Of a stretch of DNA of 49,582 bases, positions 12,077 through 36,604 are shown one piece after another. The translations under genes and the position numbers were made by a program. The notes beneath the pieces are model-generated. The model was not told where the DNA came from and made no database searches. It was given only the letters and a program-made list of their open reading frames with translations. Positions within the stretch are counted from its first letter, which is position 1, and the number at the start of each line of letters is the position of its first letter. Source of the DNA: a virus; IMG/VR virus record IMGVR_UViG_3300031758_004985, positions 1-49,582 of that record, one strand, 5' to 3'.

Positions 12077-12741
12077 AAGTAAAGTTAATATCACATAGTA
12101 CACCATCTCCTGAAATTCTTGCACAAGGGCTCGAAGATGCACAAGATCTTATAGCTTTTTGTGCAAGAGTAAGTAATCCAAGTAATCAGTTCAATACAGG
12201 AACCAGCGAAAAATTAATTAACTATCTAGTTAAACATAAACATTGGAGTCCGCTTGAAATGGTATCAGTGTGTTTAGAAATCGAAACAACACGAGACATT
12301 GCAAGGCAAATGCTACGACATCGTAGTTTTAGCTTTCAAGAATTTAGTCAACGCTACGCTGATCCAACAAAGGACCTTAACTTTGTACATAGAGAGGCAC
12401 GACTCCAGGATACTGCTAATCGACAGAACAGTATAGAAACCGACGATGACGACTTACAACAACAATGGCGTCGGTGGCAGAACAATGTTATTACTGAAGC
12501 ACGTATGGCATATAATTGGGCTATTGAAAACGGTATAGCTAAAGAACAAGCTCGTGCTGTATTGCCGGAAGGGCTTATTGAAAGTCGTTTATATATGAAC
12601 GGTACATTGCGTAGCTGGATACATTATATCGAACTTCGTTCCTCTAATGGAACACAAAAAGAACACATGGAAATTGCTCGTGCATGTGCAGAAGTAATTT
12701 CTAAAGTAGTTCCTATGATCAATAATTTTATTACTGATTAA
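12073..12741 (+). CDS. thyX: Flavin-dependent thymidylate synthase
   Basis: This 222-aa protein contains the ThyX signature RHRSFSFQEFSQRY together with TSEKLINYLVKHKHWSPLEM and ARAVLPEGL. ThyX makes dTMP from dUMP using methylenetetrahydrofolate and NADPH through FAD, as a homotetramer. It would support DNA synthesis for the phage, with folE a possible source of pterin precursor. The start overlaps the previous gene (ATGA). Its stop codon lies within the end of a gene on the other strand (11-base convergent overlap). Confidence 0.96.
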   Translation: MKVKLISHSTPSPEILAQGLEDAQDLIAFCARVSNPSNQFNTGTSEKLINYLVKHKHWSPLEMVSVCLEIETTRDIARQMLRHRSFSFQEFSQRYADPTKDLNFVHREARLQDTANRQNSIETDDDDLQQQWRRWQNNVITEARMAYNWAIENGIAKEQARAVLPEGLIESRLYMNGTLRSWIHYIELRSSNGTQKEHMEIARACAEVISKVVPMINNFITD

Positions 12742-13849
12742 ACCATTCAGTAAGTTTTTCTTTAAGATTTTTTCCGATCTGCTCTTGAACAATCTGTCTA
12801 TGCTGATTGTTCTTTTTTAGCCTCTCGTTGAGATTAGTAACGGACATTATGGAATCTTTGTTCTTTAAAAGACGTTCTAGCTCTTCTGCTACCATTTTTA
12901 TTCGATTACCCGGATTTGGTTCTAAATCGTAAGAATGATCTACAATATCATCAAAGACATCAAACCCGTGATCCCTAACAGCTTGCACATGCCCTTTAAC
13001 TGTTACAAATAATGGTATCTGATAAGATTGAAAAGCAAAAAACGTTTTCTCTGTTAAAAATACTCTATCACTAAAAATACCTCCACAGTAGTTAGTACAT
13101 TTTGTTCCAGGTATAATAGAATCGTCATAAGTAGATTCTAAAACTACTTTTACTATTGAATCTATTGCTTCGGGCGGGTAAGTGACTACATACTGATTTC
13201 TTTTTACTATTCCGTCAGCATACATTGGAAACAAATGTGTGTATTCTGCAGGTATTAATTCTTTATATAATTCGTCCCCGTAATCGTCTGAAACTCCAAA
13301 ACTCACACACCCTAAATTTAAAAGGTCTCGTTTAACTAATTCTAAAGTAAATAATAATCTAAAATTTTTTGGATTTCTTGATAAAGAATTGTAAAAAGTT
13401 TTTCTTTGAGAAATAGGCGTTAGTGCTCGCACTACACTTGTTAGATCCAATACAGGATTAATAACAAAAGGATTTGTACCTATGTGAGGGTAACTTCCGT
13501 CTGTAGTATATCCTGCATCAACAACCATTATATCTTCAATATTTTTTCCTGTTATTTCTAAAATAAAGTCTACTATTTCTTTCCATCTGTAATTTGGTAA
13601 CGCTTCATTTCTGACCATTAATAAAAGTTTAGGGTATTCTTTTAATTTCTTTATGCTATGGCCAACAATAAAAAGTTTTATCCTGCCAAGGTTATCCCAA
13701 TATTTTAAAGCTGCTACATCAAAATTAATTACGCCTATTTTACGTTTTCCTCTACCTTCTAGAAGATGAACTATGTCTCTGTTTAACCATACCCAATCTT
13801 TATCTTTAACTCTCTCTTGTAGTACGTTTAAATGAGATTTACTTAGCAT
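12731..13849 (-). CDS. Putative glycosyltransferase-like protein (372 aa)
   Basis: ATG 13849 follows GGAG at about nine bases and lies just inside the 3' end of the upstream gene; the longer open frame to 13918 has no ribosome site. The C-terminal half contains a stretch, FLTEKTFFAFQSYQIPLFV, resembling the TEK(T/S) segment of fucosyltransferase- and exostosin-like glycosyltransferases, where it binds the nucleotide sugar. The N-terminal half is not recognised. It is last in a three-gene operon with a radical SAM enzyme and an SDR-like protein. The glycosyltransferase call rests on one motif and should be treated as tentative. Confidence 0.55.
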   Translation of the reverse strand: MLSKSHLNVLQERVKDKDWVWLNRDIVHLLEGRGKRKIGVINFDVAALKYWDNLGRIKLFIVGHSIKKLKEYPKLLLMVRNEALPNYRWKEIVDFILEITGKNIEDIMVVDAGYTTDGSYPHIGTNPFVINPVLDLTSVVRALTPISQRKTFYNSLSRNPKNFRLLFTLELVKRDLLNLGCVSFGVSDDYGDELYKELIPAEYTHLFPMYADGIVKRNQYVVTYPPEAIDSIVKVVLESTYDDSIIPGTKCTNYCGGIFSDRVFLTEKTFFAFQSYQIPLFVTVKGHVQAVRDHGFDVFDDIVDHSYDLEPNPGNRIKMVAEELERLLKNKDSIMSVTNLNERLKKNNQHRQIVQEQIGKNLKEKLTEWFNQ

Positions 13850-14999
13850 AAGTTTTATCTCCAGGAAATAACGGTAGTTCAGTATTAGGTGCTCTTTTAG
13901 GAATTTTACTATCGGCACTACTTACACAACTTGGAGTAATACAAGGTTTAGGACTATCAAATAATCTAAAACCTGTTTCTATATTTCCCAATGGCACATC
14001 GTGACAGCTATAACTTCGTTTGATGCTTCCGTCTGGTTCGCGTATAATAATACCTCGATATCCACTACTACATTCCCATCCTTCAAATTTGTTAAAATTA
14101 AAGGCATTAAATCGTTCGGCCTGATCCATGTACCACACCTTTTGTTCTTTATCTATAAATTCTACTTGAAAGTGTTGTGGGATATTTTGATTTTCTGCTT
14201 TATAAATTGGATCAGGCATCTTAACAAAAGTAGGAAATGGTCTTGAGACTAGTTTAGCAGTGGCAGCTTTAGCTTCAGTAAACGCCCGTTGAGGCATTCC
14301 GTTATGTAACTTTTCTAACATTTCAGAAGTATAACCATCTACTACCCGACTAGCAGTGGGATCGCTTTGAGGCTTTAATGTAACATTAATACCCCTATTA
14401 TGAAAGTAAAGAGCGTTTTCATAATCTTTATCAAACCACTCTGGTACCATGACCATATTAATTGTAACTTGTACATCATGGTCTTGACAAAGTTCTAATT
14501 TATCTCCAAATTCTTTTAGCTTCTCTTTAGTGTCAACATGTTCAGTGTGTAGACTAGCAGTTATACTTGCACGGTGGAATTTACTAACAGCAGGACAATA
14601 TTCATCGTTAAACCATTTTACAGTTCTGCTCATATTAGTTGTCATATGAACACTGGTGTAATTTGTATTTGGGGCATCATTATTCAAATGATTTAAAATA
14701 TCTATGTACCCTGGATGAAAGGTTGGTTCGCCTCCACTAAGGCTAAAATGAAAACTATTAAATCCTCTTTCTCTAGCCTGTCGTTTAATTTCGTCTACAG
14801 TTTTAATACATAATTCTGTTGGTCTATGATCTTTTTTATCACTCCGTGCATAAGGCCAACAATAGCTACAACGATAGTTACAATATCTGCCTAATAACCA
14901 ACTTACTGTAAAAAGGTCTCTATATAACATATTTCGTTGTCCAACACGAACTATATTTTCAAACGGTATTTTTTTAAAATCGTATTCTGATTTTTCCAT
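13839..14999 (-). CDS. Radical SAM protein with SPASM-like C-terminal cysteines (386 aa)
   Basis: The [4Fe-4S] motif is GRYCNYRCSYCWP with C40, C44 and C47, followed by the SAM-binding SLSGGEPTFHP. The C-terminal region has further cysteines at about 310, 332, 353 and 358 around YRGIIIREPDGSI, as in SPASM-type auxiliary cluster domains. SPASM enzymes often modify peptides, but others act on sugars or small molecules; the substrate here is unknown. It is coupled to the glycosyltransferase-like gene by an 11-base overlap and follows the SDR-like gene by one base. Confidence 0.88.
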   Translation of the reverse strand: MEKSEYDFKKIPFENIVRVGQRNMLYRDLFTVSWLLGRYCNYRCSYCWPYARSDKKDHRPTELCIKTVDEIKRQARERGFNSFHFSLSGGEPTFHPGYIDILNHLNNDAPNTNYTSVHMTTNMSRTVKWFNDEYCPAVSKFHRASITASLHTEHVDTKEKLKEFGDKLELCQDHDVQVTINMVMVPEWFDKDYENALYFHNRGINVTLKPQSDPTASRVVDGYTSEMLEKLHNGMPQRAFTEAKAATAKLVSRPFPTFVKMPDPIYKAENQNIPQHFQVEFIDKEQKVWYMDQAERFNAFNFNKFEGWECSSGYRGIIIREPDGSIKRSYSCHDVPLGNIETGFRLFDSPKPCITPSCVSSADSKIPKRAPNTELPLFPGDKTYAK

Positions 15000-15000
15000 G

Positions 15001-15555
15001 TTAAACTTTCTGAATTGGGTCTATGCTTATTTCGTTTATATGAAATTCTTTAGGCTGTTCAATAACCCATTTTATGTAATTTGCTGCAAGACTAATATCC
15101 ATACAAGTCCTAGTTGGATGTTTATGTTGTACATTAGATAAACTACCAAAACTTACTAAAGTGACTGTAGGACCTCCTTGCCATACACCGTTCATCGAAA
15201 GTGTATTACAATAATCTCTCAAAGCTTTTTTCTCTGCATTATATAACCATGCTCCGCCTTTTTTAACTCGATCAGTTGTTGATCCTACACAAATTATTTT
15301 TAGATCTTTTTTGTTTTCTATGCAAGATTTATAAACTGCATCTAGTAGTACAGTTTGGTTAAATTTCCATAGTGCTGAACAATTTATAAAAATATCGTAA
15401 TCTAAAACTTTTTTGGCTAGAGATAACTGTCCATCCGCTGAGGTTAAATCGTAGCCAGTTGTCCTTGATACAAAAGTAGCGTCCGGATATATTTTAAATA
15501 GTTCAGAAGACAATCCAAAATTTTTATTTCCGGTTATTAGTATTTTGGAGCTCAC
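15001..15555 (-). CDS. Short-chain dehydrogenase/reductase-like protein (184 aa)
   Basis: GTG 15555 is preceded by AGGAAG. The N-terminus (KILITGNKNFGLSSEL) is a Rossmann nucleotide-binding strand-turn, ICVGST fits the catalytic Ser strand, and YNAEK is a YxxxK catalytic pair. SDR enzymes oxidise or reduce hydroxyl/keto groups with NAD(P)H. At 184 aa it is shorter than the usual 250 aa, lacking part of the C-terminal substrate lobe. It starts the minus-strand operon that continues with a radical SAM enzyme, so a sugar- or cofactor-modifying step is possible but unproven. Confidence 0.7.
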   Translation of the reverse strand: MSSKILITGNKNFGLSSELFKIYPDATFVSRTTGYDLTSADGQLSLAKKVLDYDIFINCSALWKFNQTVLLDAVYKSCIENKKDLKIICVGSTTDRVKKGGAWLYNAEKKALRDYCNTLSMNGVWQGGPTVTLVSFGSLSNVQHKHPTRTCMDISLAANYIKWVIEQPKEFHINEISIDPIQKV

Positions 15556-15589
15556 ATCTTCCTCTTATTTTTACTTTGAAATAGTAGCA

Positions 15590-15597
15590 TATAAATA
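15590..15597 (+). promoter_or_regulatory. T4-type late promoter, perfect TATAAATA
   Basis: An exact match to the T4 late consensus in an 82-base divergent gap. The expected +1 is near 15603, so the transcript would begin at the base of the hairpin at 15602-15617 and reach the ATG at 15638 after about 35 bases. Confidence 0.75.
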
Positions 15598-15603
15598 TTT
15601 AGC
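15596..15603 (-). promoter_or_regulatory. Possible late-type promoter (GCTAAATA), minus strand
   Basis: On the minus strand this octamer matches TATAAATA at 6 of 8 positions and shares its core with the cyanophage-like CTAAATA form. With +1 near 15590 it would leave a 35-base leader with AGGAAG before the GTG at 15555. It overlaps the plus-strand late promoter, giving a compact divergent pair. Confidence 0.4.
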
Positions 15604-15617
15604 TAGTAAAAACTAGC
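15602..15617 (+). other. Short 5'-leader hairpin
   Basis: GCTAGT (15602-15607) pairs perfectly with ACTAGC (15612-15617) around an AAAA loop. Its position at the predicted 5' end of the late transcript suggests a stabilising cap-like stem-loop; it does not cover the ribosome site. Confidence 0.5.
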
Positions 15618-15637
15618 CAACATAATTTGAAGAACCC

Positions 15638-16990
15638 ATGAGAAAACTAGTTAAAAATACATACATCATATACATTGTTGATGATAACAAGGATTATAAA
15701 GACACCTTAGGTCAGGAAATTGGTTATAATCTTCTAGAAGCATCTGTAAGGCACGACATGCTTTACAAATACTTTTTATCTTACGACGATGCATTTAAAA
15801 GTTTACAAACAGAAACAGCTCCTAAAGTCATTTTTACAAGACCAGGAAACACATTTGATCCAATATGGTTAGCACAGTTAGTTTCTAAAAATCCAGAGTA
15901 TTCTCTAATTGGACATCTTTTAGACAAAGGTGAAGAATACTACGAACTACACAATCAATGTTTTATATTAGATGTTAAAGATTGGAAACAATCCGGATCT
16001 CCTATGTATAATTCTCCTGGAGAGCAAACATGTACAAATATCAGTAGGAGCGAGAACAATTTTCATGATCACCACACTCCTTTATCAGTTGATAAAGGTG
16101 ATGGAACAAAGACCTATAAAAAGATAAAGCCAGGCGGATTAATTATTAGTAAATTGTTAGAACACGGATTTAAAATTAGGCCGTGGACTTCAGAAGAAAG
16201 AAAGCATAAGTTTTACCTATACGATGATCTAGTTTTAAAGTACGGATCTTATCTACGTATAGAATGTACGTTTGACGACACTATCTTTAATTGTACAAAT
16301 GAACCAATTGTAAAATTTGAACTCCCGCAAATTAAAAGAATTGTAACTCCCGCAAACGGACTACAAGCCTTACAGATTATTGACAAGTGCCCTAATGCTA
16401 CTACTGTAGATTTTAGAGATATTAGTCAATCTGCAATCAATTTTACAAAAAATGTTTTAGACAATTATATCGGAAAAGATTATGACCAACTATGTTTTTC
16501 TAGCGGGTACAATCTTCAAGTTAGCAATCAAGAGTCTATTAGAAAATCAGAACAAGAATTTTTAAACGGGCTTGTAGAACCTTATTCCGAAATGCAGTTT
16601 AGATTACTAGAACTGAATTGTAACTATTTCAAAGAAAGCTTCTTTGAAATAGAAGATTTAATTAATAGGATGAATGGTAATACATTGTATGCGTTTAGCA
16701 ATATTCTGTCTTATAGGAAAACAGCATACTTGTACAGTCAAATTCATTTTAATTTAATGTTAAAAACATTAGCTAGTGCAGAAAGACTAGCAAAAAATGA
16801 TAGTTATTTTTTAGGAATGTTACCTACTAGCGAAGCATCGACAAGAGGATATGCGTTAATGCATGTTAAAGATGTTAGTTTAGATCCTGATACAGAATTC
16901 AACTTTCCTTGGAGACAAAAATTATATGAATACTACACTGAATATCTCGGAATTCTTCGAGAAAAGGAAAGAAGAAAATCATTATCATAA
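15638..16990 (+). CDS. Unknown two-domain protein (450 aa)
   Basis: Residues about 1-150 contain IIYIVDDNKDY and PEYSLIGHLLDKGEEYYELHNQCFILDVKDW, which read like a nucleotide-sugar or glycan-related alpha/beta domain. Residues about 230-290 contain VTPANGLQALQIIDKCPNATTVDFRDIS, which resembles the start of a Rossmann-type SAM-dependent methyltransferase. Neither assignment is firm. It is first in a plus-strand block behind a perfect late promoter. Its 3' end overlaps the hydroxylase gene by 65 bases. Confidence 0.75.
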   Translation: MRKLVKNTYIIYIVDDNKDYKDTLGQEIGYNLLEASVRHDMLYKYFLSYDDAFKSLQTETAPKVIFTRPGNTFDPIWLAQLVSKNPEYSLIGHLLDKGEEYYELHNQCFILDVKDWKQSGSPMYNSPGEQTCTNISRSENNFHDHHTPLSVDKGDGTKTYKKIKPGGLIISKLLEHGFKIRPWTSEERKHKFYLYDDLVLKYGSYLRIECTFDDTIFNCTNEPIVKFELPQIKRIVTPANGLQALQIIDKCPNATTVDFRDISQSAINFTKNVLDNYIGKDYDQLCFSSGYNLQVSNQESIRKSEQEFLNGLVEPYSEMQFRLLELNCNYFKESFFEIEDLINRMNGNTLYAFSNILSYRKTAYLYSQIHFNLMLKTLASAERLAKNDSYFLGMLPTSEASTRGYALMHVKDVSLDPDTEFNFPWRQKLYEYYTEYLGILREKERRKSLS

Positions 16991-17666
16991 TTTAACTGAG
17001 ATACCAAAACATCTAAATTTAGATGCTCAGTTAAAATGGATTATTGAAGAATCAAACTTAAGAACTCTTAGATTAAATGTTGAGATTCCCCATGAACAGA
17101 TGTATCAAGAAGCTGAAATTCTTCTTGACGAATTTTATTCTCATCGAGACGAAGGCGAAGATCACAGAGGGTGGAAAAGTCTTGTTATTCACGGACGAGG
17201 AAAACATATTACTCAAGGTGACGAACAATACGAAAATTTAAAAGATCTTCCCGACTATCATTGGACTGAGATAGCCGACAAATGTCCTATAACAACTATG
17301 TGGTTAAAAAGTTGTTGGCCTTTAGATAAATTTCTCAGGGTACGATTTATGCTTTTAGAACCAGATGGCTACATTATGCCTCATAGAGATAACAATAAAA
17401 GAAAGTTACAAGCAATTAATATAGCGTTAAATAATCCAGTTGGTTGCGAATTTGGTATGGAAAACTACGGAGTTATACCATGGAAATCTGGAGATGTTAG
17501 ATTAATAGATATAAGCACGAATCATGCTGTTTGGAACAATAGTAAAACTCCCAGAATACATATTATTGTACATGGATGGCCAGTTCAACAATATAAAGAG
17601 TACAGAAATTTAGTTATAGAAAGTTATAAAAAAACATATGAAGAATATATTGCATCTTGGAAGTAG
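16926..17666 (+). CDS. Aspartyl/asparaginyl beta-hydroxylase-like 2OG-Fe(II) oxygenase
   Basis: The C-terminal two thirds show the Fe(II) triad and 2OG-binding residue in order: MPHRDN with H153 and D155, STNHAVWN with H200, and R210 in TPRIHIIVHG. The preceding FMLLEPDGYI is typical of the Asp/Asn beta-hydroxylase family, which hydroxylates side chains of proteins or free amino acids. The start at ATG 16926 lies 65 bases inside the preceding gene; a later start would still keep the whole catalytic domain. Close relatives in phages exist, but their substrates are unknown. It overlaps the first SGNH gene by 29 bases. Confidence 0.85.
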   Translation: MNTTLNISEFFEKRKEENHYHNLTEIPKHLNLDAQLKWIIEESNLRTLRLNVEIPHEQMYQEAEILLDEFYSHRDEGEDHRGWKSLVIHGRGKHITQGDEQYENLKDLPDYHWTEIADKCPITTMWLKSCWPLDKFLRVRFMLLEPDGYIMPHRDNNKRKLQAINIALNNPVGCEFGMENYGVIPWKSGDVRLIDISTNHAVWNNSKTPRIHIIVHGWPVQQYKEYRNLVIESYKKTYEEYIASWK

Positions 17667-18372
17667 TTGGAGTGAAGTAAATGGTGTACCTAATCATAGC
17701 TTACCATTTTTTGTAACAGAAGGCCTTATTAATCGAGGTATTGATGTAAACTATTATTCAACAGCTATGGGCGGTTGTGGATTAGGTGTTCAATTTGAAA
17801 TTTTATTAAACATTTTAAACGGTAAAGAAAAAATTGATTTTGTTTTATTTGAAGTAACTACATTTGACAGATTTCATTGTCAACTATTAGACTCTGATAT
17901 TGTATGGGAAAAAGAAGATAGTCATCCTAATATTGTACAATGTCGAAACTGGCTTATTAAAAACTATATTTTTTGGATGCCGCTGCATAAAGAAATTATT
18001 AATCAACATTGGCCTTATCTGTCGAATAAAGGAACATATTTAAAAATGGCCAAACTTTTAAATGCGGGCGACTTTAATTGGGAAAGTATTTTTTTAAGTA
18101 GAATAGTAACAATTAAAAATTTACTTAAAAAAAGAAATATTCCGTTTTTAATATATGCACACGATTCGAAACAAATGGTAGATAAAACTCGGATATCTCA
18201 ATTAGTACTTAAAGAAATATACGACGAACTAGACTTTTGTGTTAACGAGTACATTGGTATTGAAACTTTTAAGAAATTTGCCATCGACAGAGGATTTCAT
18301 ATGTCGCCCAACGGTGACAGATATATAGCTGAAAATGTTTTAATACCAAAAATTATTGAAAAATTAAAATGA
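17638..18372 (+). CDS. SGNH/GDSL-like hydrolase, copy 1 (244 aa)
   Basis: The N-terminus KNILHLGSSWSE fits block I of SGNH hydrolases, with the nucleophile Ser in GSSWS. The C-terminus DRGFHMSPNGDRYIAE fits block V with the catalytic Asp/His. SGNH enzymes hydrolyse esters, including acetyl groups on sugars. No signal peptide is seen, so it would act in the cytoplasm or on the virion. It is clearly homologous to the next gene (same start, same TxEVxxYYSxxxGGC pattern and ending), so the two are a tandem duplication. It overlaps the next gene by ATGA. Confidence 0.75.
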   Translation: MKNILHLGSSWSEVNGVPNHSLPFFVTEGLINRGIDVNYYSTAMGGCGLGVQFEILLNILNGKEKIDFVLFEVTTFDRFHCQLLDSDIVWEKEDSHPNIVQCRNWLIKNYIFWMPLHKEIINQHWPYLSNKGTYLKMAKLLNAGDFNWESIFLSRIVTIKNLLKKRNIPFLIYAHDSKQMVDKTRISQLVLKEIYDELDFCVNEYIGIETFKKFAIDRGFHMSPNGDRYIAENVLIPKIIEKLK

Positions 18373-19076
18373 AAAAAATATTACATTTAGGGTGCAGTTG
18401 GAGTCAATTTAATCACGAAGGACAAAAAGGAGTACCTGAAAATACAGTCGAAGTATTAAAAGAGAAAAATGTTGATGTTCTCTATTACAGTGCATCCCAT
18501 GGTGGTTGCGATCTTGGAACACAATTTGAAGTACTAAAATCAGAGATAGGTAAAGGCTACGATTTTATTATATTTCAAGTTACTTCTGACAGTAGACATC
18601 ATATAAGAACTGGTCATTATAATTTAGACTGGACTCCTACTGTTTCTCATCCAAACATTTATAAGTGTGATGTTTCTTTAAGAAAAAGTTTTGTGTTCTG
18701 GAATCCAAATTACGGAAAAGCTATAGATCAATTCTGGCATAAACATAACAGAGATTATCGAATGGCTGCTAAACTTAGTTACTCTTACGACTGGGATGAT
18801 CAAAGTTTATACTTTGGTCAAATATGTTCGATTAAAAAAATATTAGAAAAATCTAATACTCCTTACATAATCTATAGTCATCGGAATATCTGGTGGGAAA
18901 AACATAATAATATCTTTCAGGCTCACACAACTGATCTACTTGATTTTGATGTTGAAACACAATTAGGTGACAATTTTAATTCTTATATTGTAGACGACGG
19001 ACACCATTTAAGTAGTCAAGGAAATAGGATAGTAGCCGAAGAATTAATTGTTCCTAGACTACTACCCTATCTATAA
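18369..19076 (+). CDS. SGNH/GDSL-like hydrolase, copy 2 (235 aa)
   Basis: Paralog of the preceding gene: KKILHLGCSWSQF at the N-terminus, YYSASHGGCDLGTQFEVL next, and VDDGHHLSSQGNRIVAEEL at the end. The nucleophile Ser would be in GCSWS. Whether both copies are active is unknown; the divergence suggests different substrates or a heterodimer. The stop (19074-19076) abuts the stop of the convergent minus-strand gene with no spacer. Confidence 0.75.
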   Translation: MKKILHLGCSWSQFNHEGQKGVPENTVEVLKEKNVDVLYYSASHGGCDLGTQFEVLKSEIGKGYDFIIFQVTSDSRHHIRTGHYNLDWTPTVSHPNIYKCDVSLRKSFVFWNPNYGKAIDQFWHKHNRDYRMAAKLSYSYDWDDQSLYFGQICSIKKILEKSNTPYIIYSHRNIWWEKHNNIFQAHTTDLLDFDVETQLGDNFNSYIVDDGHHLSSQGNRIVAEELIVPRLLPYL

Positions 19077-21372: not shown

Positions 21373-21377
21373 GGAAA

Positions 21378-21385
21378 TATTTAGT
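21378..21385 (-). promoter_or_regulatory. Weak late-type octamer directly before 21372
   Basis: ACTAAATA on the minus strand matches TATAAATA at 6 of 8 positions. Its expected +1 coincides with the ATG at 21372, which would make the transcript leaderless. Because the same stretch lies inside an operon, it may be chance. Confidence 0.25.
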
Positions 21386-21392
21386 TATTATG

Positions 21393-22571: not shown

Positions 22572-23829
22572 CTTGTTCAAATAGATAACTAAATTGTTTT
22601 AAATAATCTTTATTTACTGCTTCTTGAAAATACAGAAATTCTTCTTTTAACTTATTATTTGCTCTTGTACTAAAATCGTGATTGTCTAATAAATCAAAAA
22701 CATTTTGAAAGTCTGATTTATAATCTAAATTACAATCGTTAATAACATTAATTAAAGATTGTTTTGACTTCATAATATATTTTTTTGGAAGAACATTAAT
22801 AGACATTGATCGTGGCCAAGTGAGTATAATTGGTTTAATTACACATCTTTTATCTCCAAGTGTTTTTTTCCACCAATAAATTAAATTATCTAAATATCTT
22901 ACATTTAACCCGCTGACTACAGGTACTAAAGTAAGTTGGAAATTATCGTCTACATGTTTGACCGCTAAGTTAACATTTTTTTCAATATTATTCCAATCTG
23001 AACTCGTTCTTAAATATTCATTCAATTCGCCATACGCATCAATACTTAAATTTAATTCTACACTTTTAAAACTTTTAAGAAGATTTAATTGGTATTCGCT
23101 AAACTGAGACGTATTTGTATTACACCAGAATACAATGTTTGATGAGTAACCTTGCTCAACAAGAAAGGTTATAAAGTTCCAAAGAGGTTTAATAATAAAA
23201 GGTTCGCCGCCTGTAACATACAGATGCTCTAACTTATTTGCAATGTCTTTAAGCCCTTCCCAAAAAGTTTCACTTTTATCTAATTGTTCTTCTCCTGGAT
23301 TATTAGACCACCATCGTTGATTTAACAACATTGTCTTTTTTTCTTCTCCCATTTTTTGCCCTATAGAAGTAATTAAAGAAGACCAATCTGTAGAACACAT
23401 AATGCAAGCATAGTTACAAGTTTTAGCTACTTGCAAATTATAATAGCTGGGTACTAACTTTGTATCAAACTTTTCCCAATTAGAAAAATCTTCAGGTAAT
23501 GAAGTATCATAATTTTGTTGAAAGACATTCCACTCTTCTAATCGTTTAGAAACTAATCCTTGTTTTTCTTTGATCCAACAAGATTCACATTCTGAAAGTT
23601 TTTCTCCATTTATCATCCGTTTTCTAGATTCGTTGTAGTATGAATTATTAAAAATTTCTATAATCTTTGTAGACTTACCGTCAACTTTTTCTATGTCAGG
23701 ATTATACTTTGCTTCGCAACAAAATTTTATTTGTCCTTTAGTTTCTGTACTAAAATGATTGAATAACAAAGGACACATTGTTGGATGTGTACCTGGAGAA
23801 AATCTATTTAAAAATTCTTCTCGATTCAT
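22555..23829 (-). CDS. Twitch-domain radical SAM protein, copy B (424 aa)
   Basis: It has the same architecture as the 19966 gene: an N-terminal MCPLLFNHFST (C19), KFCCEA (C37/C38) and CESCWIKEKQGLVSKR (C81/C84), then the SAM core KTCNYACIMC with C138, C142 and C145 and VTGGEPFI. The two share order and spacing but not identity, so they are diverged paralogs. Its first codon overlaps the stop of the gene upstream, and its stop overlaps the SPASM gene start by 17 bases, so these enzymes are produced together. Confidence 0.85.
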   Translation of the reverse strand: MNREEFLNRFSPGTHPTMCPLLFNHFSTETKGQIKFCCEAKYNPDIEKVDGKSTKIIEIFNNSYYNESRKRMINGEKLSECESCWIKEKQGLVSKRLEEWNVFQQNYDTSLPEDFSNWEKFDTKLVPSYYNLQVAKTCNYACIMCSTDWSSLITSIGQKMGEEKKTMLLNQRWWSNNPGEEQLDKSETFWEGLKDIANKLEHLYVTGGEPFIIKPLWNFITFLVEQGYSSNIVFWCNTNTSQFSEYQLNLLKSFKSVELNLSIDAYGELNEYLRTSSDWNNIEKNVNLAVKHVDDNFQLTLVPVVSGLNVRYLDNLIYWWKKTLGDKRCVIKPIILTWPRSMSINVLPKKYIMKSKQSLINVINDCNLDYKSDFQNVFDLLDNHDFSTRANNKLKEEFLYFQEAVNKDYLKQFSYLFEQDDIPL

Positions 23830-24197
23830 TGTGTTTCCTTATCCCAATACATTTTATTATTTTTTTGATAAAAGTAATCTTTTTGCATTTCATATACATC
23901 ATCGTAATCTACTCTATAATGAAATGCTTGACTTTTTAAGTATATTGCTATTCTAACATATGCAGCAGGTTTCGACTCTGGTCTAGGTCCCGAAGTTTTA
24001 TATTGGATGTGCCAAACTGCATTATCAGTTTGTATTTGACATCCACCTTTTTTATTCCAAAATCCTAATATTTTTTCAAAATCTTCCACCTTTAACATGT
24101 AAGTGTTTACTGTGTTAGAGCTGACAAGAATACTTAAACTAACTTCGTTAGTTTCTTTAAACAAATAAATTTTTAATGGCTTGGTAAATTCTAACAT
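23826..24197 (-). CDS. Hypothetical protein (123 aa)
   Basis: A beta-rich soluble protein (KPLKIYLFKETNEVSLSILVS, AVWHIQYKTSG) with a charged helical C-terminus rich in Tyr and Lys. No motif or signal. It overlaps its upstream neighbour by one base and the radical SAM gene by four bases (ATGA). Its place between a radical SAM trio and a small protein makes a carrier or binding partner possible, but nothing in the sequence shows it. Confidence 0.7.
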   Translation of the reverse strand: MLEFTKPLKIYLFKETNEVSLSILVSSNTVNTYMLKVEDFEKILGFWNKKGGCQIQTDNAVWHIQYKTSGPRPESKPAAYVRIAIYLKSQAFHYRVDYDDVYEMQKDYFYQKNNKMYWDKETQ

Positions 24198-24421
24198 TAA
24201 TTATCCAAAACTAATTTAACATCTTTTCCTGGACCAACATGACTTGGTAATCCACCATACTCGTTGATATACCATTCAATTACAGCCTTATACCAATTTT
24301 GGCTATCGTGATGAGCCTGCTGGTTAAATTTAAAAATATTATTGTTGGTAGCTTCTATAGCTACTAGAGCTCTTGCAGATTCTTTTTGAAGAGTTCTTAA
24401 ATCAAAATCATTTATATCCAA
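24197..24421 (-). CDS. Small hypothetical protein (74 aa)
   Basis: A short helical protein with Asn- and Gln-rich middle (EATNNNIFKFNQQAHHDSQNW), then IEWYINEYGGLPSHVG and a short tail. It is coupled at both ends by overlaps. Its size, its position next to three radical SAM genes and a GG followed by a short C-terminal tail make it a conceivable peptide substrate, but no leader motif is convincing. Confidence 0.65.
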   Translation of the reverse strand: MDINDFDLRTLQKESARALVAIEATNNNIFKFNQQAHHDSQNWYKAVIEWYINEYGGLPSHVGPGKDVKLVLDN

Positions 24422-25517
24422 TTCTCAAAAATCTCCTATATTTTGGTAATTCTAATTCACCTTCGTACAGACAATCTCTCATCGGAGTTTTGTCTGTAAA
24501 GTCAATCAAAGAACTAGAACAGTTTACGTGATCTTCAATGTCAAAATAATCGTTAGTTTGCAAAATCACTAGTGTCCCATCTGGTATACTTTCGTACCAT
24601 TGATTAAAATTTCCTATATGTTCACAACTAGTATTAATTATCGTATTAGGAATATCTACTAAAGTTACTGTTGTTCCGTCTGGCTTAAAAACATCGTAAG
24701 TTGTCTTATTATAATTTAAGCTTAAAATGTCAGCAATTCCAGCTTTAAATTTCCACGAATCCATTTCCCACGGTTTATTAAATCTTTCTGCTATTTTAAC
24801 ACAACTAGGATCAATATCAAAACTTCTAACTTTGTTAATTTTTAAATTGCTTTCGAACATCATTACAGCAAGAGTACCGTACCAGCCTGCACATAAAAAT
24901 ACCGTTCCTAAATCTAAATCAAGTTTCTTTAGCTCATGTATTAACCACATTTTGCTAGCTAGTTGTCCTCGAGAAAAACAATCGTCATCATAATTTACTT
25001 GTTCAATATAAAAACTTTTAAATGCTGAAACAAACTGTGTTTCTAATTCGTTAGATAAAATCTTCCAAAGACTCCAAACGTTGTCTTCTAGTACTAATTT
25101 TCTTAATTCTTCATTATTACAAATCCTAAAAATACTATATAAATTTTCTTCAACAACTGCCTTTCTTAATTCTTCATTTTCTACTAATCTAAAAATACTG
25201 TGTAAATTTTTTTCAGTTACAGCTTTTCTTAATTCTTCAATTCCATCGTTTTCTAAATTAGGAATAACTCTAAAAATACTATACATATTTTCTTCAATGA
25301 CTGCTTTTCTTATATCCTCAGTATATTCATTCTCATCAAAAAGTCTAAAAATACTGTGTAGATTTTTCTCCATTACAGCTTTTCTTAATTCTTCATTATC
25401 TAATAATCTAAAAATACTAGAAAAGTCTTTATCAGTATAAGACCTGCGTAAATCAGATATTCGTTCATTAGTATTGAATAACAGTTCAAATCTATCCAAC
25501 AAATCTTTAATTTCCAT
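24408..25517 (-). CDS. Tandem-repeat protein fused to methyltransferase-like domain (369 aa)
   Basis: ATG 25517 follows AAAGGA; an in-frame TTG three bases upstream is not needed. Residues about 20-153 are six helical units of 21-27 residues built on SIFRL..NEELRKAV.E.NL. The rest contains TVFLCAGWYGTLAVMMFES followed by VRSFDIDPSCVKIAERF, a Rossmann arrangement of a class I SAM-dependent methyltransferase. A catalytic motif IV is not clear. The repeats probably form a solenoid that binds a partner. It belongs to the operon of glycosyltransferase-like and radical SAM genes. Confidence 0.78.
   Translation of the reverse strand: MEIKDLLDRFELLFNTNERISDLRRSYTDKDFSSIFRLLDNEELRKAVMEKNLHSIFRLFDENEYTEDIRKAVIEENMYSIFRVIPNLENDGIEELRKAVTEKNLHSIFRLVENEELRKAVVEENLYSIFRICNNEELRKLVLEDNVWSLWKILSNELETQFVSAFKSFYIEQVNYDDDCFSRGQLASKMWLIHELKKLDLDLGTVFLCAGWYGTLAVMMFESNLKINKVRSFDIDPSCVKIAERFNKPWEMDSWKFKAGIADILSLNYNKTTYDVFKPDGTTVTLVDIPNTIINTSCEHIGNFNQWYESIPDGTLVILQTNDYFDIEDHVNCSSSLIDFTDKTPMRDCLYEGELELPKYRRFLRIGYK
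25062..25460 (-). repeat. In-gene tandem repeat array (six units of 63-81 bp)
   Basis: This stretch encodes residues 20-153 of the 24408 gene. The units keep frame and share the pattern of Ser-Ile-Phe-Arg, Glu-Glu-Leu-Arg-Lys-Ala-Val and Asn-Leu, while length varies by insertion of 1-5 codons. Similar DNA in several units (AAAATACT on the plus strand, repeated) indicates recent slippage or recombination. Confidence 0.8.
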
Positions 25518-26187
25518 CAAATTTTTCCTTTAACCATATAAAGTCGTTTATTTTTTTTAAGGCATCAACGTTGCCTTTGTTTTCAGTTCCGTAGTTAGTA
25601 CCCTCATGCGCACCGCGAATTGCATATTCTCCATAAGGCTTATCAGATCCTACTGATCTCCAAACATTTAATCTTTCCTCAGTCTCATTAGATTTTTGCC
25701 TATCAATTACTTTACTACTTAATTTTACACACTCTCTAAATGCACTTTTCCATGTATTAAACGGATCAGTATTAAAAACAGTAATATTACTAACCTGGGA
25801 AACTGGAACAAAATGTCTACTAATACTAGTTGTCATATCAGGTTTAGAAACATCCATATTTAAAGTTAGTTTTCTTGGGAGAAGTTTGATTCCTCCGTAT
25901 CCGTACACTAGTCCGTTAACTGGATTTAGACTTCTCCAGACGTGAACATGTTCTAGATACTGATTAGAAACATTATAATCAAAATTAAAATCTTCTAACA
26001 CTTTTGCATCACCATCAACAACCCAAAACATCTTAGTTAAACATTTCTGTGCTGCGGCAATGTGTGCTTGATGTATTCCTTTAACTCCGTGTACACGTTT
26101 TGTCATTGGAAAGTTGTTTAGTAAATTTTTGTAATTTTCCTCAGCATTAGGTTCTTGGTAGCTGATAAACACAATGTCATACATCAT
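25507..26187 (-). CDS. Glycosyltransferase-like protein, pair 1 copy A (226 aa)
   Basis: The N-terminus DIVFISYQEPNAEENY, then KRVHGVKGIHQAHIAAAQ and FWVVDGDAKV (DGD at about 58-60), fits a GT-A type fold, in which the DxD-like motif binds a metal and the nucleotide sugar. Downstream VNGLVYGYGGIKLLPR and EGTNYGTENKG are shared with the next gene. No transmembrane segment. The sugar donor and acceptor are unknown. It overlaps its paralog by ATGA, indicating coupled production. Confidence 0.68.
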   Translation of the reverse strand: MMYDIVFISYQEPNAEENYKNLLNNFPMTKRVHGVKGIHQAHIAAAQKCLTKMFWVVDGDAKVLEDFNFDYNVSNQYLEHVHVWRSLNPVNGLVYGYGGIKLLPRKLTLNMDVSKPDMTTSISRHFVPVSQVSNITVFNTDPFNTWKSAFRECVKLSSKVIDRQKSNETEERLNVWRSVGSDKPYGEYAIRGAHEGTNYGTENKGNVDALKKINDFIWLKEKFDGN

Positions 26188-27113
26188 CGTTTAACAACTC
26201 TAGCACCAGTAGTTACTCTAGAAGGGTTAGTAAACACTTCTTTAAAAAATTTACTCTGTATTGGATCAAGCGGACTACTCACAGGAATATCTAATTCGCT
26301 TTTAAGTTTTTCTCCTAAAATTTCTACTTCATCTTTCATACGATCTTCAGTCAGTGTTGCATTTTGATCTTCCCAAAATTGATTTAACCATTTAAAATCT
26401 CTAACATTTACATAATCCCAATCAGTACAATTTGTCATATAACATCCTTGTCTTGCCCCGAACATTGCCCAGTAACCGTTTTCTACATCTGATCCAACAT
26501 TTAACCAGGCTAACAATCTATGATAATTCTTTTTATGTACACTGTGAATAAATTTTTTAGTATTTTCTAGTTTAACTCCTTGTGTCAAACTCATTTTGAC
26601 ACCTTCACGGAATCCGGCCCGCCATGCTTGCCAAGGTGTAGCATTATTATACACCCAACTCATGCATTCGTCTAATGTTATGTAATTAATATCCCAACAA
26701 AAATCAACTTGGCTTTGAGGATTATTAGCGTCAGCGTTTTCATGAGTTTTCATGTTCAACACGAACTCTCTGGGCCAACTTTTGATCCCACCGTTTCCAT
26801 ACATTAATCCGTTTACTACATTTAATGCACACCAAGACACTACACTTCGATTATATAACTCTTCTGAATCAATTTCAATTGTTTGTTCAAAAAATTTAGG
26901 ATTTACTATGTTATCTCCATCAATTATAACGATTCTTTCGGTGTCTGCTAATTTTGCACAGGCCTTGTGCGCTGAATCAGATCCTTCAACACCGTGTACA
27001 CGCTTTGCCCACGGGCATTTAGTTAGCAAATCTGCATAATTTTTTTCAGCGTTTGGCTCGTCATAGCTCAAATATATCACATCGCAATCAATAATGTTAA
27101 AAGTTTTAGTCAT
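26184..27113 (-). CDS. Glycosyltransferase-like protein, pair 1 copy B (309 aa)
   Basis: Paralog of the previous gene: DVIYLSYDEPNAEKNY, KRVHGVEGSDSAHKACA, IVIIDGDNIV (DGD at about 65-67), VNGLMYGNGGIKSWPR. It is longer by an internal segment and a C-terminal tail of about 60 residues (SSPLDPIQSKFFKEVFTNP) that the shorter copy lacks. Such GT-A-like proteins are seen in marine phages without known substrates. ATGA overlap with the gene before it. Confidence 0.68.
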   Translation of the reverse strand: MTKTFNIIDCDVIYLSYDEPNAEKNYADLLTKCPWAKRVHGVEGSDSAHKACAKLADTERIVIIDGDNIVNPKFFEQTIEIDSEELYNRSVVSWCALNVVNGLMYGNGGIKSWPREFVLNMKTHENADANNPQSQVDFCWDINYITLDECMSWVYNNATPWQAWRAGFREGVKMSLTQGVKLENTKKFIHSVHKKNYHRLLAWLNVGSDVENGYWAMFGARQGCYMTNCTDWDYVNVRDFKWLNQFWEDQNATLTEDRMKDEVEILGEKLKSELDIPVSSPLDPIQSKFFKEVFTNPSRVTTGARVVKR

Positions 27114-27661
27114 AATAATCCATATGTTTTAAAATACTGTTCTGTTACCATTGAAAACTTTGTTAAATCGTTTTCGTTTTCGTAAGCATACGGAACTTCG
27201 ATAAAGTCATTTTCAACTAAATCATATAATTGAAATCTTATTGTTCTAATTAAAAAGTGTATGTCTTGTTTTTTACAAATATAGAAATTTATATTCCTAT
27301 TTTGATCTCTTAATATTCTTTTTTTAACTGTAGGCGAAAGTCTAAATCTCCAACAATTGGACATTCTTTGAATCAAGCACTCTTCACGTGAATCAATCAT
27401 TGGTCTAATAATGTGAATATAACTGTGTACTGTAGGAGGTATAGATTTTTCAACTTCTTTAATTTCATAACTACCGTCATCGGCAAAAGTTATCATACAA
27501 TTACCAATTTGAAATCCACTACTTGAAAATTTTTGCTGTTCGTCAAAGTCTAAAGCTATAAATTTTTTAGATTCTTCTAATTCAGGACTTATAGATTCTA
27601 TAACTCCGCTATCATTAAAATATAAAAATATGTCTGTTGGATTATATTTTTTCTTCGGCAT
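27110..27661 (-). CDS. Hypothetical protein (183 aa)
   Basis: A soluble protein with N-terminal strand-rich sequence (DIFLYFNDSGVIESISPELEE), a middle stretch PTVHSYIHIIRPMIDSREECLIQRMSNCW and a C-terminal basic region. No motif is recognised. It overlaps its neighbours on both sides and sits between the two glycosyltransferase-like pairs, so a role in the same process is likely, of unknown kind. Confidence 0.68.
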   Translation of the reverse strand: MPKKKYNPTDIFLYFNDSGVIESISPELEESKKFIALDFDEQQKFSSSGFQIGNCMITFADDGSYEIKEVEKSIPPTVHSYIHIIRPMIDSREECLIQRMSNCWRFRLSPTVKKRILRDQNRNINFYICKKQDIHFLIRTIRFQLYDLVENDFIEVPYAYENENDLTKFSMVTEQYFKTYGLL

Positions 27662-28496
27662 TTTTCTTTAATTTATTTTCAAGTTTTTGAATAATCTCAT
27701 GTGTTAAAAACTCATCTTCTACATAATGGAATACACCGTTTTGCAAAATATTTCCTATTTTTAATTCGCATTGATCAGTAAACACACTACTTACAGTATC
27801 ATACCAAGAAAAGGGCAACAATGACCAATCTTGTAATGCTGGTTTCATATGTGTAAAGGTTGGGATTGACAGAGTTTTTAGTGTACATTGTTCCTCAACA
27901 TCTAAAATTTTTAAAATCAATGCCGACGAAACATCCATACTAGCCCAAGTTTGTTGAGTGCTAGGACAAAATTTTTGATAAAAGGTCTGATAATTTTTTG
28001 TTAAAATTTCTAACCATTTATAAAATTCAAAAGAACTTTCATTTTTTTTGAAATAATGTAATCCAAAATATGTATTTGGTAATTTATTTTCTTCAAAAGA
28101 TTGTCTATAATAATTAGAAGTAATTTTATTACCTCGATAATTAAACACGTTGCTAGATAACACTACATCTTTATTTTTTAAAACATTCCACCAATGATCA
28201 TTAGAATTCAACAATAGCATATCGCTGTCATAAACTAAATTTTCTTTAAACGGTGTTACATAAATTATTTTCCATCTATTTTCAATTTTCCAAACACTGT
28301 CTTTAGCTTCATCATTCCACGGAATTTCGACTATATAATCAAATACTTTTTTATAGTGCTCGGGTACTTTGTCATTAGTAATAACACAAACTTGATTTAT
28401 TTTATTATGTAATTTTATACTTAATGCAAGTGCGTATGCCTGTCTAAGATAGTTTACATCAGAATTTTGAGCAAAAATAACATGACCTTTAGACAT
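27642..28496 (-). CDS. Glycosyltransferase-like protein, pair 2 copy A (284 aa)
   Basis: VIFAQNSDVNYLRQAYALALSIK at the N-terminus and LVYDSDMLLL (DSD at about 90-92) resemble GT8-type glycosyltransferases, which use a nucleotide sugar with a DxD-bound metal. A later HYFKKNESSFEFYKW fits the acceptor side of the fold. The 20-base overlap with the downstream 183-aa gene and the short overlap with copy B show coupling. Not proven active. Confidence 0.7.
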   Translation of the reverse strand: MSKGHVIFAQNSDVNYLRQAYALALSIKLHNKINQVCVITNDKVPEHYKKVFDYIVEIPWNDEAKDSVWKIENRWKIIYVTPFKENLVYDSDMLLLNSNDHWWNVLKNKDVVLSSNVFNYRGNKITSNYYRQSFEENKLPNTYFGLHYFKKNESSFEFYKWLEILTKNYQTFYQKFCPSTQQTWASMDVSSALILKILDVEEQCTLKTLSIPTFTHMKPALQDWSLLPFSWYDTVSSVFTDQCELKIGNILQNGVFHYVEDEFLTHEIIQKLENKLKKNAEEKI

Positions 28497-29322
28497 ATAA
28501 TTCCTTATTGTCCATTAATCGTAGTAAACTAAGTTTATTCATAACATGCACATCCATACCTTCAGTCTTGGACACAATGTATTCATTAGCAGACGAGGGA
28601 TGTTCTAATAAAAATGTCATTTTATTATCTTCAAATGATAAGATATGATCTTTATCTAATACATATGCTATTTTGGCTGGAAATATTTCTATAAAATTTT
28701 CTTTAGAAAACCCATTAAACATATGTATCGCAATACTATACGCGATGTCATTTCGATAATTTGAACTTAATGTTTGATACATCATCACATAATAGCTCCA
28801 ATTATCTTTAATATATTCAACTAAATTAAAAAATAATTGATTCTTTTCAGTTTTTCTAAAATAAAAAACAGTGGCCCAATAAAAATCAATGCTATATTCA
28901 CTAATGTGATTAAATTCTTTGATATTTCTCCAACTAGCTAGATCAAAACTATCTTTAAAAATTAAAAAATCGCTAGTCTTACCCCAGCAACAATTTAAAA
29001 AATCAGAGTTAATTATATAATCGCAGTCAATTACTAAAGTTTCATCGTAAGGACTTAGGTCATAACAGGTGTGTCTAGAAAGATTATTCCACTCATCGAC
29101 AAAGTTTTTTAAAGACCCGTCATGAAATAATCTTTTTTGACCCAATTCTTTCGCTAAAAGAATAACATTGTCAAATAAATTTTCTTTATCAACTTGTACA
29201 TCAGTAACTAATGTAACAGGTACCTTTAAAAATTGTGCGACTCTACTAGCAGCCAGCTTGGCTAATTTAACATAATCAATAGTTTCGTTATTGAAGGCAA
29301 AGATTAAGACACCCTTAGTCAT
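28489..29322 (-). CDS. Glycosyltransferase-like protein, pair 2 copy B (277 aa)
   Basis: GVLIFAFNNETIDYVKLAKLAASRV at the N-terminus and ETLVIDCDYIIN (DCD at about 99-101) give the same fold signature as the neighbouring copy. A later YWATVFYFRKTEKNQLFF matches the acceptor-side pattern of copy A. They are diverged paralogs. It overlaps the 29319 gene by ATGA. The substrate is unknown. Confidence 0.7.
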   Translation of the reverse strand: MTKGVLIFAFNNETIDYVKLAKLAASRVAQFLKVPVTLVTDVQVDKENLFDNVILLAKELGQKRLFHDGSLKNFVDEWNNLSRHTCYDLSPYDETLVIDCDYIINSDFLNCCWGKTSDFLIFKDSFDLASWRNIKEFNHISEYSIDFYWATVFYFRKTEKNQLFFNLVEYIKDNWSYYVMMYQTLSSNYRNDIAYSIAIHMFNGFSKENFIEIFPAKIAYVLDKDHILSFEDNKMTFLLEHPSSANEYIVSKTEGMDVHVMNKLSLLRLMDNKELYV

Positions 29323-29669
29323 AATTGAACTAAACTCTCAACCTTTCTAGAAAGTTTTAATTGTTGATATTTGGTTTGATAACTGTTAACTGCCATAAAG
29401 TACTGATTTAGAATATCTTCTAAAAACACATTAAGATTTTTGATCTTGATGGGAAGGTCGTTATCATCTATAAGCACCACATCTGTATCTTGTTTCAAGT
29501 CTATAAGAGTTTTTACAAAAGTTATTAGATCTTTTGATACTTGGAACGTGTGCCCTTGGAAAAAATAAACTAGATTTTGTTTGAATTCTTGCTTTAAAAT
29601 TGACTTTTGATTAGCTAAAGTTGTCATATAATTGGCAACTTCATACGCTTTTTGAACTTTGTCGTCCAT
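29319..29669 (-). CDS. Conserved small protein near tail genes (116 aa)
   Basis: ATG 29669 follows GGAGT; the open frame upstream runs through a hairpin and is not coding. The sequence is helical and amphipathic with TFQVSKDLITFVKTLIDL, VVLIDDNDLPIKIKNLNVFLEDIL and a basic tail. This resembles a small protein encoded beside tail-fibre genes in marine T4-like phages, where a chaperone or assembly role is possible but unproven. It is the first gene of the long modification operon. Confidence 0.72.
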   Translation of the reverse strand: MDDKVQKAYEVANYMTTLANQKSILKQEFKQNLVYFFQGHTFQVSKDLITFVKTLIDLKQDTDVVLIDDNDLPIKIKNLNVFLEDILNQYFMAVNSYQTKYQQLKLSRKVESLVQL

Positions 29670-29678
29670 TTTTACTCC

Positions 29679-32329: not shown

Positions 32330-32337
32330 TATTTATC
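32330..32337 (-). promoter_or_regulatory. T4-type late promoter (GATAAATA), minus strand
   Basis: It matches TATAAATA at 7 of 8 positions. The predicted +1 near 32324 leaves a 16-base leader with AAAGGGG before ATG 32308. It sits between two structural genes in a 30-base gap. Confidence 0.65.
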
Positions 32338-36603: not shown

Positions 36604-36604
36604 A

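Follow-up and report, generated by a model that had tools for sequence, protein, structure and literature searches.

The clustering of radical S-adenosylmethionine (radical SAM) genes in the vicinity of phage tail genes was on record by 2010 (PMC2853527) and was described anew in 2020 (PMC7029224); the role of these clusters is only guessed at in the sections of these papers cited here. According to those sections, the five-gene radical SAM cluster of the Campylobacter phages CP220 and CPt10 is an interchangeable module, likely non-essential and possibly of metabolic benefit to the host (PMC2853527), and the host recognition cluster of pelagimyophages combines glycosyltransferases (GTs) with radical SAM-related cassettes, the suggestion being that the host O-chain is changed (PMC7029224). 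Glycans on phage structural proteins have been described in mycobacteriophages (Freeman et al. 2023, as cited in PMC12619734), and the passages of PMC12619734 used here assign four core GT groups to the "moraphages"; the words "radical", "MoaA" and "hydroxylase" do not occur in its main text. Within mostly open-access literature, at the level of titles and the beginnings of abstracts, we found no description of a radical SAM system for tail or virion modification. Here we analyze a viral record, IMG/VR IMGVR_UViG_3300031758_004985, positions 1 to 49,582 (this whole stretch of 49,582 nucleotides is the window), in which tail fibre genes are followed by GT genes and then by radical SAM, oxygenase and other enzyme genes. 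A first-pass annotation of this DNA could point to no phage system described as combining these genes, a statement that has to be qualified in view of the two precedents above.

The interval 12,731-29,669, initially delineated as a single island, contains a real gene set, yet it joins two parts, a conserved fibre-linked GT block (25,507-29,705) and a swappable block on both strands that extends over 12,765 bp from the GT1 stop to the thyX stop (12,742-25,506). About 20 genes are found rather than the 17 originally counted, and, as originally described, they mostly overlap or abut. Two sets of related loci reveal this division. The set picked with the GT2 protein comprises 78 loci (the best 80 of at least 593 confirmed IMG/VR matches, minus the window's phage and one duplicate), 45 of them at least 15 kb long; the set picked with the radical SAM protein rSAM3 comprises 74 loci (80 retained of 189 matches, minus six of the window's phage), near-duplicates included; two contigs are common to both. 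Genes were counted by tblastn with the window proteins at 1e-5 and flanks of up to 10 kb, so divergent or distant hydroxylases escape the counts.

In the 45 longer loci picked by GT2 alone, GT2, GT3 and GT4 are each present in all 45, on the same strand as the fibres, and are accompanied by the tail fibre-like gene fib1 in 41, the small gene g29319 in 42, GT1 in 39 and a methyltransferase-like gene (MT) in 35, so that the linkage to tail fibres proposed at the outset is borne out. The rest of the interval is far less constant: any radical SAM gene is detected in 34/45 loci, AspH in 3/45 and the "P4H" oxygenase in 1/45, and in 11/45 no relative of the radical SAM, AspH or P4H genes is detected. 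Seventeen of the 78 loci have a thyX hit, and in 16 of these (all except L139) a GT abuts thyX, at -13 to +60 bp between tblastn hits rather than stop codons, with no radical SAM gene in between. Among the 74 loci picked with rSAM3, GT1, GT2 and rSAM3 are universal, followed by rSAM4 (68), rSAM2 (65), MT (63), rSAM1 (32), P4H-like (18) and AspH (6) genes, and in six (L012-L014, L022, L023 and L061) the radical SAM block is closed off on its far side by a thyX hit. The number of radical SAM genes per sampled locus ranges from 1 to 8, fragments counted. Because the same families recur in the same order in most of the 74 and 78 loci (near-duplicates and the two common contigs included), the arrangement is not due to chance, and the locus counts together with the GT-thyX abutment show that, in these large uncultured aquatic phages, the fibre-GT block is constant and the radical SAM/hydroxylase/SGNH part variable or absent.

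The window's phage recurs in six other records, with 99.99-100% identity over the stretches compared, the largest of which (G002) has 180,861 bases. It lies near the jumbo myoviruses of the PA5oct/GAP32/CBB type, given that an HNH-like protein and the giant structural protein match that group. This giant virion structural protein (37,289-49,582, like all genes of this paragraph on the minus strand) extends past the window to 4,599 aa in G002, matches phrog_10938 (E 3e-278) and is about 31% identical to a virion structural protein of the PA5oct group; a CBM5/12 carbohydrate-binding module (CBM_5_12, E 3e-15) is located near its C-terminus. Downstream of it come g36605, a virion-associated protein (36,605-37,213; phrog_11259, E 1e-70; 35% to PA5oct gp357, annotated by ESI-MS/MS), the tail fibre/collar protein fib3 (34,255-36,615; tail families phrog_9116 and phrog_523), with an N-terminus that resembles the PA5oct long tail fibre gp358, the tail fibre-like fib2 (32,339-34,258; virion structural family phrog_6002; N-terminus 41-42% to gp358/gp359) and the tail fibre-like fib1 (30,815-32,308), 26% identical over 544 columns to gp359, a virion protein detected by mass spectrometry (MS). 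Next is g29747, a probable virion protein rich in Ser/Thr (28%; 29,747-30,802), with an N-terminus 42% identical over 64 aa to MS-detected gp360 and fast-evolving, its relatives being 24-47% identical; the last is g29319 (29,319-29,705), the small conserved protein counted above. In PA5oct the order is giant gene, small open reading frame (ORF), gp357, gp358, gp359, gp360, and the giant protein and gp357-gp360 are annotated as MS-detected. With g36605 and fib1 being near-full-length homologues of gp357 and gp359, and fib2, fib3 and g29747 sharing N-termini with gp358-gp360, homology to MS-detected PA5oct proteins identifies the genes upstream of the enzymes as virion genes. Salicola phage SCTP-2 was also considered for comparison; it has the same giant gene, with neighbours annotated only as hypothetical or helicase-like, and is uninformative on GTs.

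The GT block proper continues on the minus strand with GT4 (28,489-29,322) and GT3 (27,642-28,496), both GT-A/GT8-like with a DxD motif, the unknown protein g27110 (27,110-27,661; zero library matches; in 14/45 loci), GT2 (26,184-27,113) and, as the last gene of the block, GT1 (25,507-26,187). The original claim of four GT-A-like proteins is best supported for GT2, by its predicted fold (pLDDT 92, the fold spanning about residues 4-156), and for its paralogue GT1 (36-38% to GT2); the case for GT3 and GT4 is weaker, resting on the DxD motif and a sub-threshold match of their joint profile to glycogenin (E 0.06). H49, D65 and D67 are invariant across 45 aligned sequences of the GT1/GT2 type. Structural comparison of the GT2 model, mostly confined to residues up to about 206, gives Z up to 10.5 (root-mean-square deviation 3.2 Å, 141 residues aligned), and since the nearest structures by VIA-align (B4GALNT1, a Leptospira GT, STIV A197, ThuS and others) are nearly tied at Z 10.5-9.6, no donor or acceptor is named. 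A sequence search of the PDB with the GT1/2 and rSAM2 profiles returned nothing useful.

The layout of likely promoters ties the enzymes to the fibres. Among the 8-mers upstream of genes in G002, ATAAATAT (9 upstream stretches, 15 copies) and GATAAATA (8 stretches, 14 copies) are the most enriched, and the 7-mer that we adopted as the working late motif, ATAAATA, often after G, lies outside genes at 22/31 sites (71%) in G002; among the 21 7-mers of the same composition, this one included, the next best reaches 21% and the median is 7%. The genes preceded by this motif include those for the baseplate wedge, the tail tube and other structural components, and in 62 related loci (the 74 minus 12 near-duplicates removed by eye for this count only) its density is 0.943 per kb between ORFs vs 0.067 within. 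Some ATAAATA sites are only 5-8 bp ahead of a start, which casts doubt on their role as promoters. G002 also encodes a late sigma factor (phrog_12791, E 4e-77) of a family found in 6/8 related records; thus, both hallmarks of T4-type late transcription, a sigma factor of the gp55 type and NATAAATA sites ahead of genes for structural proteins, are present. In the window, GATAAATA occurs on the minus strand at 37,233-37,240, 20 bp upstream of the ORF at 36,605-37,213, and at 32,330-32,337, 22 bp before fib1, the final such site before the GT and radical SAM genes; from fib1 to the P4H gene there is a single run, in which neighbouring genes are -26 to +41 bp apart and the motif does not recur on the minus strand. 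Of 12 loci with fib1, 8 have the motif 19-24 bp upstream of this gene. On the plus strand, the likely late promoter TATAAATA at 15,590-15,597 lies about 40 bp before g15638, the first gene of a unit that also includes AspH, SGNH1 and SGNH2. TATAAATA alone was rejected as the late motif, being depleted in the window (1 copy vs 9.65 expected); its sole copy is the one at this likely late promoter. From this arrangement, we infer that the fibre, GT and radical SAM genes would be transcribed together late in infection.

Taken together, these features suggest a virion-decoration system, and we put the prospects at about even that the locus accomplishes late, cytoplasmic glycan decoration of virion proteins, probably of the fibres, with the glycans tailored by the swappable block. 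Under this scenario, one late transcript would carry the fibre genes, the four GT-A-like GTs and then the swappable tailoring enzymes. The GTs would build a glycan in the cytoplasm on freshly synthesized late proteins, the neighbouring Ser/Thr-rich fibre proteins being the most likely ones, and the radical SAM enzymes, oxygenases, MT-like and SGNH-like proteins of the block would alter the sugars or groups attached to them; such tailoring would make the surface chemistry of related phages differ. GT activity itself, the fibres as acceptors and the action of the radical SAM enzymes on sugars are all presumed in this scheme, and the benefit might consist in receptor binding or in a shield against host factors or against other phages. 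Sugar-related genes ahead of the GTs in a second clade, the near lack of membrane proteins and the intact radical SAM motifs, all detailed below, are further points in its favour. The initial proposal that the phage modifies its tail proteins thus survives in its general form, as glycosylation, given the fibre linkage and the late-promoter layout; collagen-like hydroxylation followed by glycosylation finds no support as a general scheme, with the 11/45 loci devoid of detectable relatives of the radical SAM, AspH and P4H genes and the rarity of the two oxygenases.

An unlikely, albeit serious, alternative is that the enzymes alter lipopolysaccharide or capsule sugars of the host, blocking superinfection or coinfection. 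O-antigen GTs are often soluble, and soluble GTs could nonetheless use host lipid carriers. Remodelling of the envelope, however, is a poor fit to the tight linkage with fibre genes and to the late-type promoter layout, which suits superinfection exclusion poorly, and the clusters encode almost no membrane proteins. By a simple and crude hydropathy test (19-aa window, mean at least 1.8), 1,249 of 1,268 proteins (1,243 ORFs of the 74 loci plus 25 window proteins) have no hydrophobic stretch, 17 have one, two have two and none has more, several of these ORFs being antisense or apparently miscalled. This near absence agrees with action in the cytoplasm and disfavours flippases, exporters and Gtr-type cassettes, and a membrane flippase with a polytopic GT, the hallmark of Gtr-type O-antigen conversion, is not seen by this test. 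Envelope remodelling has been proposed for the GTs of the host recognition cluster, at least in the cited part of PMC7029224.

The swappable block contains four radical SAM genes, all on the minus strand: rSAM4 (22,555-23,829), rSAM3 (21,393-22,580), rSAM2 (19,966-21,372) and rSAM1 (13,839-14,999). That there are four is upheld, all four exceeding the Pfam cut-off (35.9 bits for rSAM3, 57.8 for rSAM1) and possessing the CX3CX2C motif, which is kept in 360/360 ORFs of the three radical SAM clusters. The proposed split into two Twitch and two SPASM proteins fares less well. The N-twitch assignment holds for rSAM2 (430 bits) and rSAM4 (272 bits), against a curated cut-off of 170 bits for NF033640 ("N_Twi_rSAM"), with rSAM1 (42.5 bits) and rSAM3 (53.1 bits) below it; SPASM exceeds the Pfam cut-off in rSAM2 alone (22.8 vs 21.5 bits) and is sub-threshold in rSAM4 and in rSAM3, which has SPASM-like cysteines at its C-terminus. 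rSAM2 is 68-88% identical to 19 aligned orthologues and rSAM3 60-80% identical to its counterparts in other phages of the rSAM3-picked loci (80 retained of 189 matches); the rSAM3 profile weakly matched NifB in the PDB sequence search.

Both 2-oxoglutarate (2OG)-Fe(II) oxygenases are confirmed, one by family match and the other by predicted fold. AspH (16,926-17,666, plus strand) belongs to the Asp/Asn beta-hydroxylase family (PF05118, Asp_Arg_Hydrox, E 3e-17; 63.2 bits vs a gathering cut-off of 22.6), and "P4H" (19,077-19,979, minus strand), with zero family matches, is assigned to the 2OG-Fe(II) oxygenase fold by a predicted model (pLDDT 79) and by the H112/D114/H257 triad, invariant among 17 aligned sequences. 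These enzymes could instead act directly on protein, with the radical SAM and 2OG proteins hydroxylating, epimerising or cross-linking fibre residues and the GTs acting afterwards. That AspH represents a family of protein hydroxylases, that many sub-threshold radical SAM matches are to peptide maturases and that the enzymes adjoin the fibres would all accord with such direct modification, but several results make it distinctly improbable. None of the named radical SAM/SPASM peptide maturase models of NCBIfam (equivalog level) reaches its cut-off, all listed scores being far under it (for rSAM1, among the best 25 of 37), and in 11/45 loci the GT block has neither hydroxylase nor radical SAM hits. 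The structural neighbours of the predicted "P4H" model favour no single substrate: with Foldseek, a free-proline hydroxylase and antibiotic-tailoring oxygenases rank first, and with VIA-align, SnoN/SnoK (Z 12.1-11.6) and H11 (11.0) come before AlkB (10.9), PHD2 (10.6) and P4H (about 10.4).

The other members of the block are less well defined, and the labels SGNH, SDR, MT and "TEKT" of the first-pass annotation, which belong to genes that are indeed present, have no library match at cut-off and are names presumed from motifs. On the plus strand are the unknown protein g15638 (15,638-16,990; no family above cut-off, homologues in 7/74 loci) and two presumed SGNH-like proteins, the first (17,638-18,372) recognized by motif only and the second (18,369-19,076) 36% identical to it. 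The minus strand encodes the presumed methyltransferase-like MT (24,408-25,520), with N-terminal repeats and N-S-EH columns conserved in 28 aligned sequences, the SDR-like protein (15,001-15,555), with a weak NCBIfam match and homologues of 35-74% identity in 16/74 phage loci, and the "TEKT" protein (12,731-13,918), with no family match and relatives in 0/74 related phage loci. The far border is a gene on the plus strand that we take to be ThyX-like (12,073-12,741).

Relatives of the block enzymes also occur in cellular genomes. A single pattern scan of a collection of 84,980 species, each represented by one genome, identified 27 cellular rSAM3 relatives: in Bdellovibrionota-type metagenome-assembled genomes (MAGs; eight relatives, 43-49%), in Microcoleus-type cyanobacteria (16 longer proteins, mostly of 527 aa, 41-51%) and in MAGs of Myxococcota, Acidobacteria and Deltaproteobacteria (three, 42-44%). 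The Microcoleus-type relatives (L112-L127) apparently carry an added repeat-like part. In the Bdellovibrionota-type loci, homologues of rSAM1, rSAM2, GT1/2, MT and SDR adjoin rSAM3 in varying sets, with nearest copies at 39-65% identity, the best rSAM1 copies at 59-65% as measured from the nearest member of the phage family and the SDR homologues at 39-42%. The only detected relative of the "TEKT" protein is also in such an island (L107, 5,873-6,847), matching its C-terminal 138 residues at 24% (E 9e-8). Two Bdellovibrionota-type genomes have 18 and 22 stretches that match the rSAM2 profile. In L207-L214 (G008:C1, 732-789 kb; G007:C15, 626-683 and 122-160 kb), N-twitch-like radical SAM genes are densely arrayed, together with homologues of AspH and MT, and the G007 array is followed at a distance of about 3.5 kb by integrase-like sequence, assigned by eye; no phage structural genes were noticed by eye in these arrays, no dedicated search having been made. 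The chemistry is thus not phage-specific, given that Bdellovibrionota-type genomes encode related enzymes.

These dense arrays, together with an architecture that resembles a biosynthetic cluster and the recurrence of carbamoyltransferase, nitroreductase-like, PP-loop-like and SGNH-like genes (the last two by eye), could be taken to indicate a diffusible product, a small molecule or peptide natural product deployed in phage or bacterial conflict. We regard this as very unlikely, considering that the GTs are tied to the fibres and that no exporter or other polytopic protein was found among the 1,268 proteins by the crude hydropathy test. Hypermodification of DNA with sugars, in favour of which are the FolE- and QueE-like genes that the window encodes outside the island and the frequent action of phage GTs on DNA, is the least likely of these readings, given that the promoters are of late type and the thymidylate synthase/dCMP hydroxymethylase family PF00303 is found in 0/7 records (G002 and six related ones, all possibly incomplete). 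As a separate observation, outside the island the window encodes GTP cyclohydrolase I and a QueE-like radical SAM protein (2,570-3,334 and 4,683-5,540), probably 7-deazaguanine (DNA or tRNA modification) genes, and a UDP-glucose/GDP-mannose dehydrogenase-like protein of just 265 aa (1,743-2,540).

Several observations weigh against virion decoration as proposed here. Concerning transcription, the exact motif is missing before fib1 in 4/12 loci, some cassettes of related loci have a motif site of their own, and early promoters may lie within genes. Concerning linkage, the first-pass annotation had named independent scatter of the families as a refutation, and the outcome is mixed: the GTs are tied to the fibres, the rest is swappable, and in one of 8 larger records, G016 (locus L028), the block is some 120 kb away from the fibre marker. 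This tail marker, g36605, is present in 8/8 larger records tested and, in seven, is located upstream on the same strand, separated by about 1.5-18 kb from the border of the fetched locus; in G016, it is about 117 kb from that border and on the opposite strand. Furthermore, a RecA-like gene (by eye), not fibres, precedes the GT/radical SAM block in 4/74 loci (L021, L028, L033 and L034). Of the 11 loci that lack radical SAM genes, 10 have an MT-like hit past thyX on the opposite strand, and this change of place implies that the difference between the block-bearing and empty states is greater than a single plain insertion would produce; the loci with this MT-like gene are L134, L138, L140, L141, L150, L152, L154, L156, L157 and L165.

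Sugar supply cuts both ways. Many rSAM3 loci form a second clade without GT3/4, in which cupin, NTP-transferase/APH-kinase, SnoaL-like, shikimate-dehydrogenase-like, KbaZ-like aldolase and carbamoyltransferase genes lie directly before the GTs (Pfam assignments on one member each for five families, the cupin barely at cut-off, SnoaL by eye). This group reads as a sugar-supply module and speaks for sugar chemistry; on the other side, none was found in the island of the window's phage, and outside the island no search was made. Radical SAM/SPASM proteins often act on peptides, and with relatives of rSAM1/2/3, GT1/2, MT and SDR in a chromosomal context, the chemistry need not serve virions. In cultured PA5oct, the stretch inspected past gp360 contains hypothetical proteins only, with no GT annotated after the fibres. 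Finally, among the 50,697 phage records, tblastn of rSAM2, "TEKT", AspH, GT2 and GT3 gave zero matches, as did megablast of the whole interval, so the exact GT core is absent from the cultured phages of that collection; the search was functional, as a control protein retrieved 771 records, and rSAM3 matched 8 records at 22.9-30.2% identity.

A broader proposal, which we advance tentatively and with the balance somewhat against it, is that aquatic jumbo phages possess a modular glycan-tailoring system in which a fibre-linked four-GT core is combined with swappable radical SAM arrays that diversify virion sugars, with enzymes shared with Bdellovibrionota-type bacteria. Should this be the case, virion glycans tailored by radical SAM enzymes would be the equivalent, in phages, of O-antigen diversification. 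If virion glycosylation by these loci is right, the fibre sequence would understate how fast receptor binding or shielding can vary, and radical SAM and GT chemistry that is still untapped would be available here. A ready comparison is provided by phages that have the block and phages that lack it.

Among known systems, the island is similar to the pelagimyophage host recognition cluster in that both are hypervariable islands beside tail fibres in T4-type myoviruses, with GTs and radical SAM cassettes, those of the cluster according to the cited part of PMC7029224; in one such phage, Pelagibacter phage Mosig EXVC030M, three MoaA-like genes, two Asp/Asn hydroxylases and VrlC are annotated at 50,458-74,952. 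Unlike the host recognition cluster, which has the limits VrlC to gp14, the island described here has thyX as its far border and the giant structural gene on its near side; it belongs to a different phage group, with N-twitch radical SAM arrays and a tight four-GT block, and the best pelagimyophage match to the window is that of rSAM3 (22.9%). The CP220/CPt10 module, as presented in the cited part of PMC2853527, likewise lies near baseplate genes, is replaced between relatives and consists of five radical SAM genes and two with nucleotide-diphospho-sugar-transferase domains, but it differs by the presence of an amidinotransferase and by the lack of an annotated hydroxylase, the rSAM3 match being 27.4%. 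In mycobacteriophages, glycosylation affects capsid and tail-tube proteins, and radical SAM tailoring is unmentioned in the citing passages. The Bdellovibrionota-type islands (the MAGs of L101-L107 and L111; G007 and G008), of which no published description was found at title/abstract level, share with the window homologues of rSAM1/2/3, GT1/2, MT and SDR and a "TEKT" relative, and differ from it in their chromosomal context. The island type is known but unexplained; with a tight core of fibre and GT genes, relatives in which the site is empty and promoters laid out in the late manner, virion glycosylation becomes a testable claim.

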